From Thermincola carboxydiphila (GTDB lineage: Bacteria > Bacillota > Thermincolia > Thermincolales > UBA2595): 64,000 bases of DNA. The notes under the pieces were generated by a model, which searched no databases, was not told the DNA's origin, and saw only the letters and a list, made by a program, of their open reading frames with translations. Every line of letters begins with the position of its first letter. Position 1 is the first letter of the stretch. The stretch covers positions 124,001 to 188,000 of the forward strand of contig JAENYP010000003.1 of the NCBI GenBank assembly GCA_016841725.1, in the 5' to 3' direction. Shown piece after piece: positions 37,938 through 41,621 of the stretch. A program made the translations under genes and the position numbers.

Positions 37938-38627
37938 TTATATCAAAAATGGGGATGCCGGGGTTCTTCCCTGGGTAGCCCCGTGGATGTCAGCCCAAAG
38001 GTTCGCGGTTTTCTGCAGGCGGTAGAGATGGCTTCCCAGAGCCAGGGAGATTCTCTGGGTTTCTTCAGAAACCACAATAATCAGGGCATCTGTAAGTTCG
38101 GTCAGTCCTAGTGCAGACCTGTGCCGCATGCCCATTGGCTGACCGTGTTCGAATAAGGTCTTCTGGGAAAGCGGGAGCACACATCCTGCCGCGGCAATCC
38201 GGTTTTCCCTGATTATTACAGCCCCGTCGTGAAGCGGGTTTCCCGGGTAAAGGATGCTTTCAATTAATGGGGCCGTAATAAGTGCATCAATAGGTGTACC
38301 GGTACGTATATAAGGAGACAGGTCATTGCTCCGCTCGATTACCAAAAGGGCGCCGTATTTCCGCTTAACAAGCCTGTTAAGCGCTTCCACAACTCCCTCA
38401 AAGTGCCCCAGGCTCGGAAGGAGACAGTTCTCCAACTGATAAGTAAGAAGCAGACTTTCTACCTCATCAGTAGTTTCCCTGAGGTCAGTAAACGTGCGGA
38501 AAATTTCTTCACATGATGCCTTTTTGTCCAGCAGCTTTTCAGTGGCTATTGCGGCTTCAACAATTTCAGACAGGTGGGCATTTATTTTTTCTTTGGCTTC
38601 TTTGCTGACAGATCCCGGAATATTCAT
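37938..38627 (-). CDS. diadenylate cyclase, CdaS-like
   Basis: 229 residues. The N-terminal two helices (residues 8-65) precede a DAC (DisA_N) domain: LVIERSNDLS near 94, PGNPLHDGAVIIR with the DGA motif at 134-136, AAAGCVLPLS, and RHRSALGL at 168-175, all residues needed for ATP binding and cyclisation. Makes c-di-AMP from two ATP. Absence of DisA's DNA-binding part and of CdaA's membrane helices, plus the short helical N-terminus, fits sporulation-type CdaS, whose N-terminus inhibits activity. Convergent with the uracil-DNA glycosylase gene; its start faces the M-box promoter region. Confidence 0.88.
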   Translation of the reverse strand: MNIPGSVSKEAKEKINAHLSEIVEAAIATEKLLDKKASCEEIFRTFTDLRETTDEVESLLLTYQLENCLLPSLGHFEGVVEALNRLVKRKYGALLVIERSNDLSPYIRTGTPIDALITAPLIESILYPGNPLHDGAVIIRENRIAAAGCVLPLSQKTLFEHGQPMGMRHRSALGLTELTDALIIVVSEETQRISLALGSHLYRLQKTANLWADIHGATQGRTPASPFLI

Positions 38628-38690: not shown

Positions 38691-38719
38691 TTGACATTTT
38701 GCAGCTATTGACATATACT
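38691..38719 (+). promoter_or_regulatory. consensus promoter of the M-box unit
   Basis: TTGACA (38691-38696), 17 bases, TATACT (38714-38719). Transcription would begin near 38726, just ahead of the riboswitch. Confidence 0.85.
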
Positions 38720-38747
38720 GAAAACGTAAGTTGATAATCAGCATCAA

Positions 38748-38905
38748 GCTTCGTTAGGTGAGGCTTCTGCACAGATCATACGCCACTGCCCGGAAATGTC
38801 GAGAGACGCCAATGGGTTAACAGGTACTGCCGGATTAAGGTTTTACCTAATGTGGCTGAACCCTCGGTTCTAGCTGTGTATGTGCCAAAGCTCGTACGAG
38901 GGAGA
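38748..38905 (+). promoter_or_regulatory. M-box (ykoK) magnesium riboswitch aptamer
   Basis: The conserved blocks of the M-box are present in order: TCGTTAGGTGAGGCT (38751 onward), TACGCCACTGCCCGGAAATG, GAGACGCCAATGGGTTAACAG, TAAGGTTTTACCTAAT, GGTTCTAGCTGTGTATG and CCAAAGCTCGTACGAGGG, which closes the P1-like stem. The M-box binds Mg2+ directly and turns expression off when Mg2+ is high. This assignment rests on recalled family sequence, not a model search. Confidence 0.9.
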
Positions 38906-38938
38906 CAGATGTGTTAGTTTTTGTATCTCCTTTAATAC

Positions 38939-38963
38939 ATCTTCCCTCTCGGAAGATTTTTTT
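38939..38963 (+). terminator. riboswitch-controlled terminator
   Basis: ATCTTCC (38939-38945), loop CTCTC, GGAAGAT (38951-38957), then six T. The 5' arm can instead pair with GAGGGAGACAGATGT (from 38899), giving the antiterminator expected for an M-box expression platform. Confidence 0.85.
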
Positions 38964-38980
38964 CATTTGGGGTGATTTAT

Positions 38981-39085
38981 ATGGATGCTGCGCCTAGTTG
39001 CGGCCCAAAAAACCAATTAAAAACCGGCATCCAAAAATTAATGAAAGAAAATCCTGCCAGGGGGTCTTTATGTCTTTTTAATTGA
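38981..39085 (+). CDS. 34-residue ORF under M-box control
   Basis: ATG 38981 follows GGGGTG by 6 nt and opens directly after the riboswitch terminator. The peptide begins MDAAPSCGPKNQLKTG and ends ARGSLCLFN, with two cysteines, no membrane helix and a basic middle. A strong terminator closes the unit at 39146. No other ORF lies between. It may be a Mg2+-response small protein, a leader peptide, or the stub of a lost transporter gene. Flanked by mgtE and corA, both Mg2+ transporters. Confidence 0.5.
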   Translation: MDAAPSCGPKNQLKTGIQKLMKENPARGSLCLFN

Positions 39086-39145
39086 GACGGGTATTCCTGT
39101 TTATATTCATTTGTATTGATGTGAATATTAGCGGTTGATATTTGG

Positions 39146-39181
39146 ATCCTCCCCGGGTAATTTTTCAGGGGAGGATTTTTA
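39146..39181 (+). terminator. intrinsic terminator closing the M-box unit
   Basis: ATCCTCCCC (39146-39154) pairs with GGGGAGGAT (39168-39176), followed by TTTTATTTT. Confidence 0.85.
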
Positions 39182-39190
39182 TTTTCCGGC

Positions 39191-40549
39191 TTACTGTAAG
39201 TATAGGATAAATGCAGAGGCAGTACCGAAGTAAACACTTAAGGAAAAAATATCATTGAGGGTTGTGATCAGGGGACCTGAAGCTATGGCCGGGTCTATCC
39301 TGAAGTAATAAAGCAGCAGGGGGATTACCGTCCCGGCAAGTGTCCCGATAATCAGGGTCAGGAACAGGGATATCCCAACCACAAAACCAAGAAAGAGATT
39401 CCTCTGCCAGGTATATGCCAATACTGCAATCAACAGCCCACATATGGCTCCAATCGTAATACCTACTCCCAGCTCGCGTGTCACCAGTCTAACCACTGCT
39501 CTGCGGTCAATATCACTGGCTGCGAGTCCACGGACCACCACGGCCAGTGACTGGGTTCCGGTGTTTCCTGTCATTCCGGCAATCATAGGCATAAAAAAGG
39601 CAAGAGAGACAGCTTTTTGCAGGATGTCTTCAAATTTACTAATAATACTTCCTGATATTAACCCGATAAACAGGAGCATAATCAGCCACGGCAGCCTTAG
39701 GAAGGATGCTTTCATTGCCCGGGTATCAAAATCTATTGCCTTGCCTGAAGCAGAGAGTTTGCCGATATCCTCATTGGCCTCCTGTATCAGTACATCAAGT
39801 ACATCGTCAACAGTCACTATTCCCAGGAGCCGGTCCTGCTCATCAGTGACCGGAAGGGCAACAAAGTCGTATTTTTCAAATAAGCGGGCGACTTCTTCCT
39901 GATCGGTATCGGCGGAAACAGAAATAATCCGGCTGAACATAATGTCATCAATCTTATCATTCAGGTCGGCCAGGAGCAGGTCGCGGTATGAGACAACACC
40001 GGTTAACCTGCTGCCTTCATCGAGCACATATAGGTAGTATATATTTTCTGCTATTTCTGCAAAGTCCTTTAGCTTATCAACTGCTTTTCTTACTGTATAA
40101 GTGTTGCGGATCCAGACATAACGGTTTGTCATAATGCCTCCTGCGGTTTCAGGAGGGTATTGCATCAGGTTCTTGACGTTTTTTGACTCCTCAAGACCCA
40201 TGGAAGCGAGGAATTCCTGGCTTTTATTAAGGGAAAGTTCATTAAGCAAATCTGCCAGGTCGTCATTTTCCATCAGGTTCATAACCCTGGATGACACACC
40301 GGTTCCCAGACGGTTAAGGATGTCCAGCTGTAACGGTATTTCCAGTTCCTGGATTAGAATCGCGGTCTCTTTCAGGTCCAGGTAGGAAATAAATTCATTC
40401 CGTAAATTTTCCGGTGTGTTTTGGTAAGCCTCTGCTACATCGTAGGGCTGCAGTTCCTCCAAGATTTCCCGGAAAGCCTGGCGGTTTTTACCGGTGATGC
40501 ACTTGAACAGATTATTCCGGATCCGGGTTTCCGATGTTTCATGCAGCAT
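39191..40549 (-). CDS. mgtE: magnesium transporter MgtE
   Basis: 452 residues. An N-terminal superhelical domain (residues 1-130, with ILEELQPYDVAEAYQNTP) precedes a CBS pair (about 140-260; GGIMTNRYVWI, FVALPVTDEQDRLLGIVTVDDVLDVL) that senses Mg2+. Five C-terminal membrane helices follow, with the channel motif FMPMIAGMTGNTGTQSLAVVVRGL near 325. MgtE lets Mg2+ in through a gated channel. Read leftward from the 115-bp divergent region shared with corA; ends next to the M-box unit without an M-box of its own. Confidence 0.96.
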   Translation of the reverse strand: MLHETSETRIRNNLFKCITGKNRQAFREILEELQPYDVAEAYQNTPENLRNEFISYLDLKETAILIQELEIPLQLDILNRLGTGVSSRVMNLMENDDLADLLNELSLNKSQEFLASMGLEESKNVKNLMQYPPETAGGIMTNRYVWIRNTYTVRKAVDKLKDFAEIAENIYYLYVLDEGSRLTGVVSYRDLLLADLNDKIDDIMFSRIISVSADTDQEEVARLFEKYDFVALPVTDEQDRLLGIVTVDDVLDVLIQEANEDIGKLSASGKAIDFDTRAMKASFLRLPWLIMLLFIGLISGSIISKFEDILQKAVSLAFFMPMIAGMTGNTGTQSLAVVVRGLAASDIDRRAVVRLVTRELGVGITIGAICGLLIAVLAYTWQRNLFLGFVVGISLFLTLIIGTLAGTVIPLLLYYFRIDPAIASGPLITTLNDIFSLSVYFGTASAFILYLQ

Positions 40550-40590: not shown

Positions 40591-40609
40591 GGTTAGTGTA
40601 CCCCTAACC
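40591..40609. promoter_or_regulatory. inverted repeat in the mgtE-corA divergent region
   Basis: GGTTAG (40591-40596), 7 bases, CTAACC (40604-40609), in the 120-bp region that must hold promoters for both genes; possible operator. Confidence 0.35.
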
Positions 40610-40673
40610 ATTATTATTTTACTACTTTACAGGCATAACCGTTTTTAAGCAGAAACAGAAAGGAGTGAGAGTG

Positions 40674-41621
40674 GTGATCAAGATATACAATTCGGATTTG
40701 TCCGGAAAGTTTTTTGAGACAGATACAATTCAACGGGGATGCTGGGTGAACCTGGTCGACCCCACCGAATCTGAAATACAGCTTGTTTCCGAAAAATTGG
40801 GGATTGAATCTGACTATATCAGGGATCCCCTTGATGAGGAAGAAAAATCAAGGATTGATAAAGAAGACGGGACCCTTTTGATTATTATTGACATACCGGT
40901 CTTCAGCACTGATGAGGAGACCTCCACTTTTGACACCATTCCCCTTGGTATGATAGTTGTGCAAGATAACTACTTTGTTACTGTCTGCCTGAAAGAAAAC
41001 CCTATCATAAATGACTTCGCCAATAACAGGGTTAAGGGCTTCTTTACTTTTAAGAAGACCCGGTTTATCCTGCAACTTCTTTACCGGATAGCTGTTTACT
41101 ACCTGAGATACCTGAAACAGATCGATAGAAAGACCGACCAGATTGAGAGAAGGCTTCACAAGTCAATGAAAAACCAGGAACTCTTTTCACTGCTGAGCCT
41201 GGAAAAGAGTTTGGTGTACTTTACTACTTCGCTGAGGTCAAATGAAGCTGTAATGGAGAAACTGCTTAAATCAAAATGGCTGAAGATGTATCCGGAGGAT
41301 GAGGACATCATGGAGGATGCCATTATCGAAAACAAACAGGCCATCGAAATGGCTCACATTTACAGCAATATTCTCAGTGGCATGATGGATGCCTTTGCTT
41401 CAGTTATTTCGAATAACCTGAACATTGTGATGAAATTTCTTACTTCAATCACGATTGTTCTCTCCATACCGACAATGGTGGCCAGCTTTTTCGGGATGAA
41501 TGTCAGGCTGCCCTTTGGCTTTGACACCGCAAACCCGTATGCTTTTCCGTTGATTATTCTCATTTCCATAGGAGGGTCAGTTTTTGTCACTCTGCTGCTG
41601 GCTAAGCGGAGAATGTTTTGA
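40674..41621 (+). CDS. corA: CorA-type magnesium/divalent metal transporter
   Basis: 315 residues from GTG 40674, 8 nt after AGGAG (GTGs at 40665 and 40671 are alternatives). Large N-terminal cytoplasmic domain, long pore helix about 200-250, then two C-terminal membrane helices (near 255 and 290) with the hallmark GMNV in FFGMNVRLPFG near 285. A pentameric Mg2+ (or Co2+) channel. Divergent from mgtE. A TGA ends it before a hairpin and terminator at 41626 and 41732. Confidence 0.95.
   Translation: MIKIYNSDLSGKFFETDTIQRGCWVNLVDPTESEIQLVSEKLGIESDYIRDPLDEEEKSRIDKEDGTLLIIIDIPVFSTDEETSTFDTIPLGMIVVQDNYFVTVCLKENPIINDFANNRVKGFFTFKKTRFILQLLYRIAVYYLRYLKQIDRKTDQIERRLHKSMKNQELFSLLSLEKSLVYFTTSLRSNEAVMEKLLKSKWLKMYPEDEDIMEDAIIENKQAIEMAHIYSNILSGMMDAFASVISNNLNIVMKFLTSITIVLSIPTMVASFFGMNVRLPFGFDTANPYAFPLIILISIGGSVFVTLLLAKRRMF

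Follow-up and report, generated by a model that had tools for sequence, protein, structure and literature searches.

The 34-codon open reading frame (ORF) behind the M-box riboswitch of Thermincola carboxydiphila is best read, from the anatomy of the locus and with moderate confidence, as a regulatory leader in a two-gate Mg2+ switch and not as the gene for a working protein. The Thermincola unit is a leader detached from its transporter gene and is not a riboswitch built to serve a peptide. With confidence only a little above even, we further propose that leaders of this kind in Bacillota, apparently with that of Bacillus mgtE among them, are a widespread nascent-peptide sensor of Mg2+ that acts in series with the M-box, stands alone before some corA genes and arose apart from the enterobacterial MgtL.

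Coordinates are those of the window, the whole 64,000-nucleotide stretch of DNA that was analysed. The unit begins on the forward strand with a sigma-A-type promoter (TTGACA-N17-TATACT, 38691-38719), which the original prediction called perfect; the promoter is present, and with 11 of 12 consensus matches it is near-perfect. The M-box (Mg2+) aptamer that follows (38743-38911, + strand) is full length, as claimed, scoring 132.3 bits (E 1.7e-29) against the RF00380 covariance model, whose gathering score is 44. It is the only M-box in the genome. The riboswitch-controlled intrinsic terminator T1 (38939-38964, + strand) consists of a hairpin at 38939-38957 and a T-run. It is mutually exclusive with an antiterminator (38897-38949, + strand) in which 38897-38914 pairs with about 38932-38949 (GAGGGAG..AGAUGUGUUA with UAAUACAUCUUCCCUC; -19.9 kcal/mol, computed with the terminator 3' arm left out), and the predicted pairing of a regulated terminator with a matching antiterminator was thus recovered. 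A CdaS-like diadenylate cyclase gene (37938-38627, - strand; Pfam DAC, 131 bits) adjoins the unit divergently, as it also does in G001, G002 and G008.

The leader ORF (38981-39085, + strand) encodes MDAAPSCGPKNQLKTGIQKLMKENPARGSLCLFN and is probably translated in Thermincola. It is preceded by the Shine-Dalgarno (SD) sequence GGGGTGAT (38969-38976, + strand), a six-base match to the anti-SD complement at a spacing of 4 that is conserved in both congeners examined, in agreement with the good ribosome-binding site originally described. Its N-terminus carries an M-D-x-[G/A]-P motif that recurs class-wide, and the ORF has no Pfam match. Within the ORF lies a candidate anti-antitermination strand, A (CCTGCCAGGGGGTCT, 39053-39067, + strand), that can pair with the 5' arm of a second intrinsic terminator, T2. 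The latter (about 39144-39183, + strand) is the second strong terminator already noted, with a CCTCCCC..GGGGAGG hairpin of -19.2 kcal/mol and a T-run. A relaxed-threshold Rfam search of 38900-39260 returned only sub-threshold chance matches to other RNA families.

Beyond T2, again as described before, lies mgtE on the opposite strand (39191-40549, - strand; Pfam MgtE, CBS and MgtE_N), between the leader and corA (40665-41621, + strand; Pfam CorA, 195.7 bits). Just ahead of corA is a terminator-like hairpin (40591-40609, + strand) whose pairing is lost in G001 and G002 and whose central TTAGTGTACCCCTA is kept. In its aptamer, terminator and antiterminator the Thermincola unit is an ordinary M-box of the RF00380 (ykoK leader) kind, and the M-boxes of its relatives control Mg2+ transporters. 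Unlike the usual M-box, it has a translated-looking leader ORF behind it, a second terminator (in the Thermincola family) and, in Thermincola, no same-strand transporter gene downstream in cis. A Mg2+ transporter gene in cis, a usual if not strictly defining trait of M-boxes, is present in the relatives G003, G004, G005, G007 and G008 and absent from Thermincola.

Gene order and conservation among relatives

The peptide was found after the M-boxes of these same five relatives and across Bacillota, as the original prediction had suggested searching for it. The order in G004 and G008 is uracil-DNA glycosylase gene, M-box, leader, T2 and corA. Since the glycosylase gene also lies upstream in Thermincola, the loci correspond. 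G003 and G005 have M-box, leader, T2 and corA, G007 has M-box, leader and a PRC-type mgtE, and in G009 the M-box is followed by corA without a leader ORF. The T2 element is common to G001-G005 and G008, ahead of either corA or mgtE. The leaders begin MDGWPGNYL.. in G003, MDAGPSHKP.. in G004, MDGAPCYKC.. in G005, MDGGPYLYR.. in G007 and MDVAPSYFG.. (with a GTG start) in G008. Between genera only about the first five residues (M-D-x-[G/A]-P) are kept, with no conservation after about codon 6.

An opposite-strand mgtE separates the leader from corA in all three Thermincola species and is not at that place in G003, G004, G005 or G008. Because M-box, ORF and T2 run straight into corA in the related genera and Thermincola has mgtE in between, the Thermincola leader is cut off from its gene, and from the gene order we infer that insertion of mgtE split leader from corA. 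The original prediction held that the riboswitch controls a small peptide or sRNA in place of a transporter. It is right that only the short ORF follows on the M-box strand before T2; dedication to a peptide does not hold, given that the relatives' unit leads into corA or PRC-mgtE. That prediction was to fall if the ORF were unconserved and an mgtE-like gene stood in its place in relatives. The ORF proved to be conserved, and the gene behind it in relatives is corA, which comes close in spirit to the second point. The position of corA directly behind the relatives' ORF, like the survival of the ORF without an M-box described below, goes beyond what had been foreseen. The CorA encoded in JAENZJ010000001.1 (Thermincola ferriacetica MAG BM5_bin.4) is 93% identical. 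The Thermincola CorA is 55% identical to Methanosarcina CorA (L231, L243, L246), which suggests transfer between Bacillota and archaea.

The same arrangement could have an output of its own. In a putative excludon-like scheme, transcripts would read through both terminators, cross mgtE in antisense over some 1.5 kb and reach corA, such that low Mg2+ lowers mgtE and raises corA. The gene order is the same in three species, T1 and T2 are both of the regulated type and no good consensus promoter was found between mgtE and corA. We nevertheless think this unlikely in view of the terminator-like hairpin immediately before corA (the pairing of which G001 and G002 do not keep) and the strong SD that corA retains.

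The window genome (G000) was compared with two Thermincola congeners, G001 and G002, both of which have the leader ORF (88% and 79% identity). Between G000 and G001 the promoter is identical at 43 of 43 positions and the aptamer at 167 of 171 (97.7%), against 64% identity in the flanking sequence and a dS of about 0.77 for mgtE. Conservation of this degree exceeds chance and indicates strong constraint since the two species split, which argues that the Thermincola unit still controls something. In G002, unrelated sequence takes the place of the promoter and M-box and no good promoter for the leader strand was found; the SD, ORF and T2 remain (L003 1600-1900; L154).

Synonymous and nonsynonymous sites of the leader ORF both change slowly when set against mgtE synonymous sites. 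The pS of the ORF is 0.05 against 0.235 for mgtE between G000 and G002, and 0.23 against 0.48 between G000 and G001. Its dN/dS within the genus is 0.4-1.0, a rough figure from only about 20 synonymous sites. Such substitution ratios are more in keeping with a regulatory leader than with a working protein.

Set against this constraint is the possibility that the unit lost its target when mgtE came between and is now a decaying local relic, the class being functional only elsewhere. The loss of promoter and M-box in G002, the dN/dS of the ORF and a weakened strand A (poor in Thermincola: GGGGGUCU, with GGGGGUC instead of GGGGAGG and weaker pairing) all point that way. We hold it to be possible but doubtful, as decay sits poorly with a promoter and aptamer almost unchanged across the divergence from G001, and with synonymous sites in the ORF slower than those of mgtE.

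The original prediction also envisaged a new type of small Mg2+-response protein, akin to MgtS. An SD-preceded 34-codon ORF conserved in the genus is compatible with one, but we reject this candidate as highly improbable. Purifying selection on the ORF is weak by the ratio given above, nothing beyond the N-terminus is shared between genera, Pfam has no match and the relatives' ORF sits before a transporter gene.

Acidic and proline-containing leaders across Bacillota

Of 398 Bacillota genomes surveyed, 133 contained an M-box, and the stretch from aptamer to main gene was then read. Blind to the peptide, a script went through 100 nonredundant intervals and picked from each the ORF with the best SD among closed ORFs of 7-60 codons. 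An ORF with an SD of at least 5 bases was present in 67 of the 100 intervals and one with at least 6 bases in 53. Within the latter set, 39/53 carry Asp or Glu at codon 2, and in 38/53 codons 2-8 include Pro as well as an acidic residue. The corresponding counts are 2/134 and 5/134 for SD-preceded small ORFs inside main genes (p=6e-26 and 5e-22), 13/100 (p=7e-14) and 9/100 for main-gene N-termini, and 2/14 and 3/14 for the antisense strand, with p across controls ranging from 6e-26 to 1e-3. Behind Bacillota SAM and TPP riboswitches, an ORF of this kind occurs in 8 of 58 intervals, none of the eight with Asp or Glu at codon 2. Such an ORF is missing from roughly one third of the nonredundant M-box intervals, that of G009 being an example.

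The bias is confined to the start of the peptide: Asp, Glu and Pro together fall from a frequency of 0.41 in codons 2-8 to 0.10 thereafter, and the signal is over by about codon 8. Asp or Glu occupies codon 2 in 74% of leaders, Pro peaks at codon 5 (38%), and Lys and Arg are nearly absent from codons 2-6. Many leaders start with M-D-x-[G/A]-P (MDSGP, MDAGP, MDGGP, MDPGP, MDGAP, MDAAP), and other starts include MDDPDAD, MEDPYP, MDPDP, METDP, MDGDP, MESEEGD and MSADPEPP. Since all Asp, Glu and Pro codons are in use, the signal points to the peptide. Among Pro codons in the first eight positions, CCT accounts for 31 of 49, perhaps because of RNA pairing or because the codon is slow.

This recurrence bears on whether the Thermincola region instead makes an sRNA or structured RNA in which the ORF is incidental. 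Synonymous sites in the ORF are slow too, the 3' UTR (39086-39145) is 88.5% identical to that of G001 and ORF bases GGATGC..GCATCC are able to pair. An N-terminal amino-acid signal that returns across many genera with varying codons and an SD each time, together with the absence of an Rfam family match, makes this explanation quite improbable.

In Bacillus, all 31 loci read have a leader ahead of mgtE, beginning MDSPHSSQSEE.., MDSPHSRRFKH.. or MDHPDSRHIES... The first six positions (MD[S/H]P[H/D]S) are kept and the remainder differs. Codons 1-7 are conserved as nucleotides too, so Bacillus alone does not separate constraint on the peptide from constraint on the RNA.

Two candidate extensions of the class were rejected. 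Weak peptide matches in other families (L005, L007, L009, L012, L020) are attributed to chance, as no M-box scores above threshold there, and L005, L007 and L012 look like unrelated gene regions. T2 is not a general feature of the class: it is found in the Thermincola family and a few others, and elsewhere the ORF ends near or overlaps the transporter start.

A proposed two-gate switch and its precedents

We propose an ancestral unit of M-box, terminator, leader ORF with an acidic and proline-containing N-terminus, second hairpin and Mg2+ transporter gene, the last being corA at this locus and mgtE, PRC-mgtE or an MgtA-type gene elsewhere. The first gate would be the known action of the M-box, in which high Mg2+ ends transcription at T1. 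At the second gate, ribosomes supplied with adequate Mg2+ would finish the leader and cover strand A, leaving strand B (CCUCC) to pair with a third strand, C, and expression would be off. In low Mg2+, ribosomes would drop off on the first codons (M-D-x-G/A-P), allowing A to pair with B and expression to proceed. C would be the transporter SD or, in the Thermincola family, the 3' arm of T2. In Thermincola, the opposite-strand mgtE would have separated this switch from corA, its old target, and G002 would later have lost the promoter and M-box and kept leader and T2. The second-gate rule is inferred from the anatomy of the elements and from the MgtL and mgtQ precedents, and on these grounds the leader peptide is probably a second Mg2+ sensor in series with the M-box.

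The predicted pairings are clearest in Bacillus. There, strand A lies within the ORF's second half, and its partner B is an anti-SD element containing CUCC that immediately precedes the SD of mgtE (C). Every locus read can form this A:B helix, with free energies between -18.6 and -29.7 kcal/mol. Compensatory changes are found in this helix (GAGACA/UGUCUC versus GAGACG/CGUCUC, and also GAUCCUUAU/AUAAGGAUC). Phylum-wide, A:B exceeds dinucleotide shuffles in strength, with z<-2 in 15 of 43 cases (best -6.5, mean -1.17, t=-3.8). The alternative B:C duplex was not stronger than shuffles by the test used. In the Thermincola family, where C is the T2 3' arm, a strand A of GGGGAGG can be picked out by eye inside the ORF of G003, G004 and G008, and one of GGGGAGA in G005; the statistics are weak, and a test of A-C mimicry in this family was not significant (p=0.08). 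In Thermincola, pairing of A with the T2 5' arm (T2 3' arm left out) gives -14.1 kcal/mol, with a z of -0.47 that is not significant alone.

Several ribosome-based Mg2+ leaders offer precedents. MgtL, the mgtA leader peptide of Salmonella and E. coli, acts through ribosome drop-off at EPDP and is Rho-dependent (PMC11282234, PMC11552253). Like MgtL, the Bacillota leader is a short SD-preceded ORF ahead of a Mg2+ transporter gene (no longer contiguous in Thermincola) with acidic and Pro residues right after Met, and its efficient translation would likewise switch the gene off. For this rule, in which a finished leader means off, corL is a further Mg2+ leader-peptide precedent (PMC11552253). The Bacillota leader belongs to another phylum than MgtL, usually stands in series with an M-box and, apart from the kind of N-terminus, shows no homology to MgtL in sequence. 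Its predicted output is an intrinsic terminator or an SD-sequestering hairpin, whereas that of MgtL involves Rho. The Thermincola start, MDAAP, has one Asp and one Pro, and with its single acidic residue is weaker than EPDP. Convergence of the two leaders is likely, the sequences being too short to judge descent.

The mgtQ leader of the Salmonella mgtC-mgtB intergenic region carries Asp2 and Glu5 (PMC8092293). It shares Asp2 and an early Pro with the Bacillota leaders, and the Bacillus mgtE leader ORF similarly overlaps a stem whose alternative frees the transporter SD; mgtQ differs in having 8 codons, lying inside an operon and lacking a riboswitch. Another precedent is uORF2 (Rv1805A) of the Mycobacterium tuberculosis pe20 M-box, a conserved small uORF after an M-box reported in 2026 (PMC12810186). 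Both combine an M-box, a small uORF with a conserved N-terminus (Pro7 in pe20) and a transporter-type operon, and a homologue without an M-box exists. The pe20 case differs in that uORF2 was reported as mycobacteria-specific, the platform is translational and combined with Rho, and the peptide was not assigned a role in ribosome drop-off.

The M-box itself, enterobacterial ribosome-based Mg2+ leader peptides and a mycobacterial M-box with a uORF are already known. Full-text searches of a library of open-access papers turned up no leader peptide behind an M-box in Bacillota, and novelty is provisionally claimed for it. The mgtE leader of B. subtilis, the model M-box, is a textbook case of a metal-sensing riboswitch, and work on it has treated the RNA as the sole Mg2+ sensor. 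If the proposal is right, transcripts whose Mg2+ response was credited to RNA only hold a second, ribosome-based Mg2+ sensor, reporter studies with a shortened leader or an ignored ORF measured only half the switch, and at least two phyla have recruited ribosome stability to gauge Mg2+. Bacillus subtilis 168 is a directly testable case for the leader sensor. The Thermincola locus illustrates the outcome of separating unit from gene, the M-box having been lost in one species and kept almost unchanged in another.

Leaders without an M-box and other variants

Among 80 named corA loci, 68 showed no M-box core, and 16 of these 68 have a leader ORF. A covariance-model search found an M-box in four of the 16 (L213, L214, L219, L225) and also in L207. 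None was detected at the gathering score in L194 and L227 (both Caloramator), L259 and L268 (both Christensenella), L208, L211, L212, L223, L226 or L264. Together with Thermincola G002, these corA leaders without a gathering-score M-box indicate that the leader can occur alone.

Two further groups of loci depart from the common pattern. The leaders of L025, L077, L079 and L097 (MDGGGSSKNYKGICNMTLKKDG.. and MDDGGNSMNGGSTGICNMTLNS..) contain an internal ICNMTL motif, show longer peptide conservation than elsewhere and lie ahead of MgtA-type P-type ATPase-like genes. In L033, L035, L078 and L085, an M-box lies about 65 nt ahead of an unfamiliar permease-like membrane-protein gene (MNRVTNLALTMIMAALLISFAYFAYQGH..) without a leader ORF, and this membrane protein is possibly an uncharacterised Mg2+ transport system.
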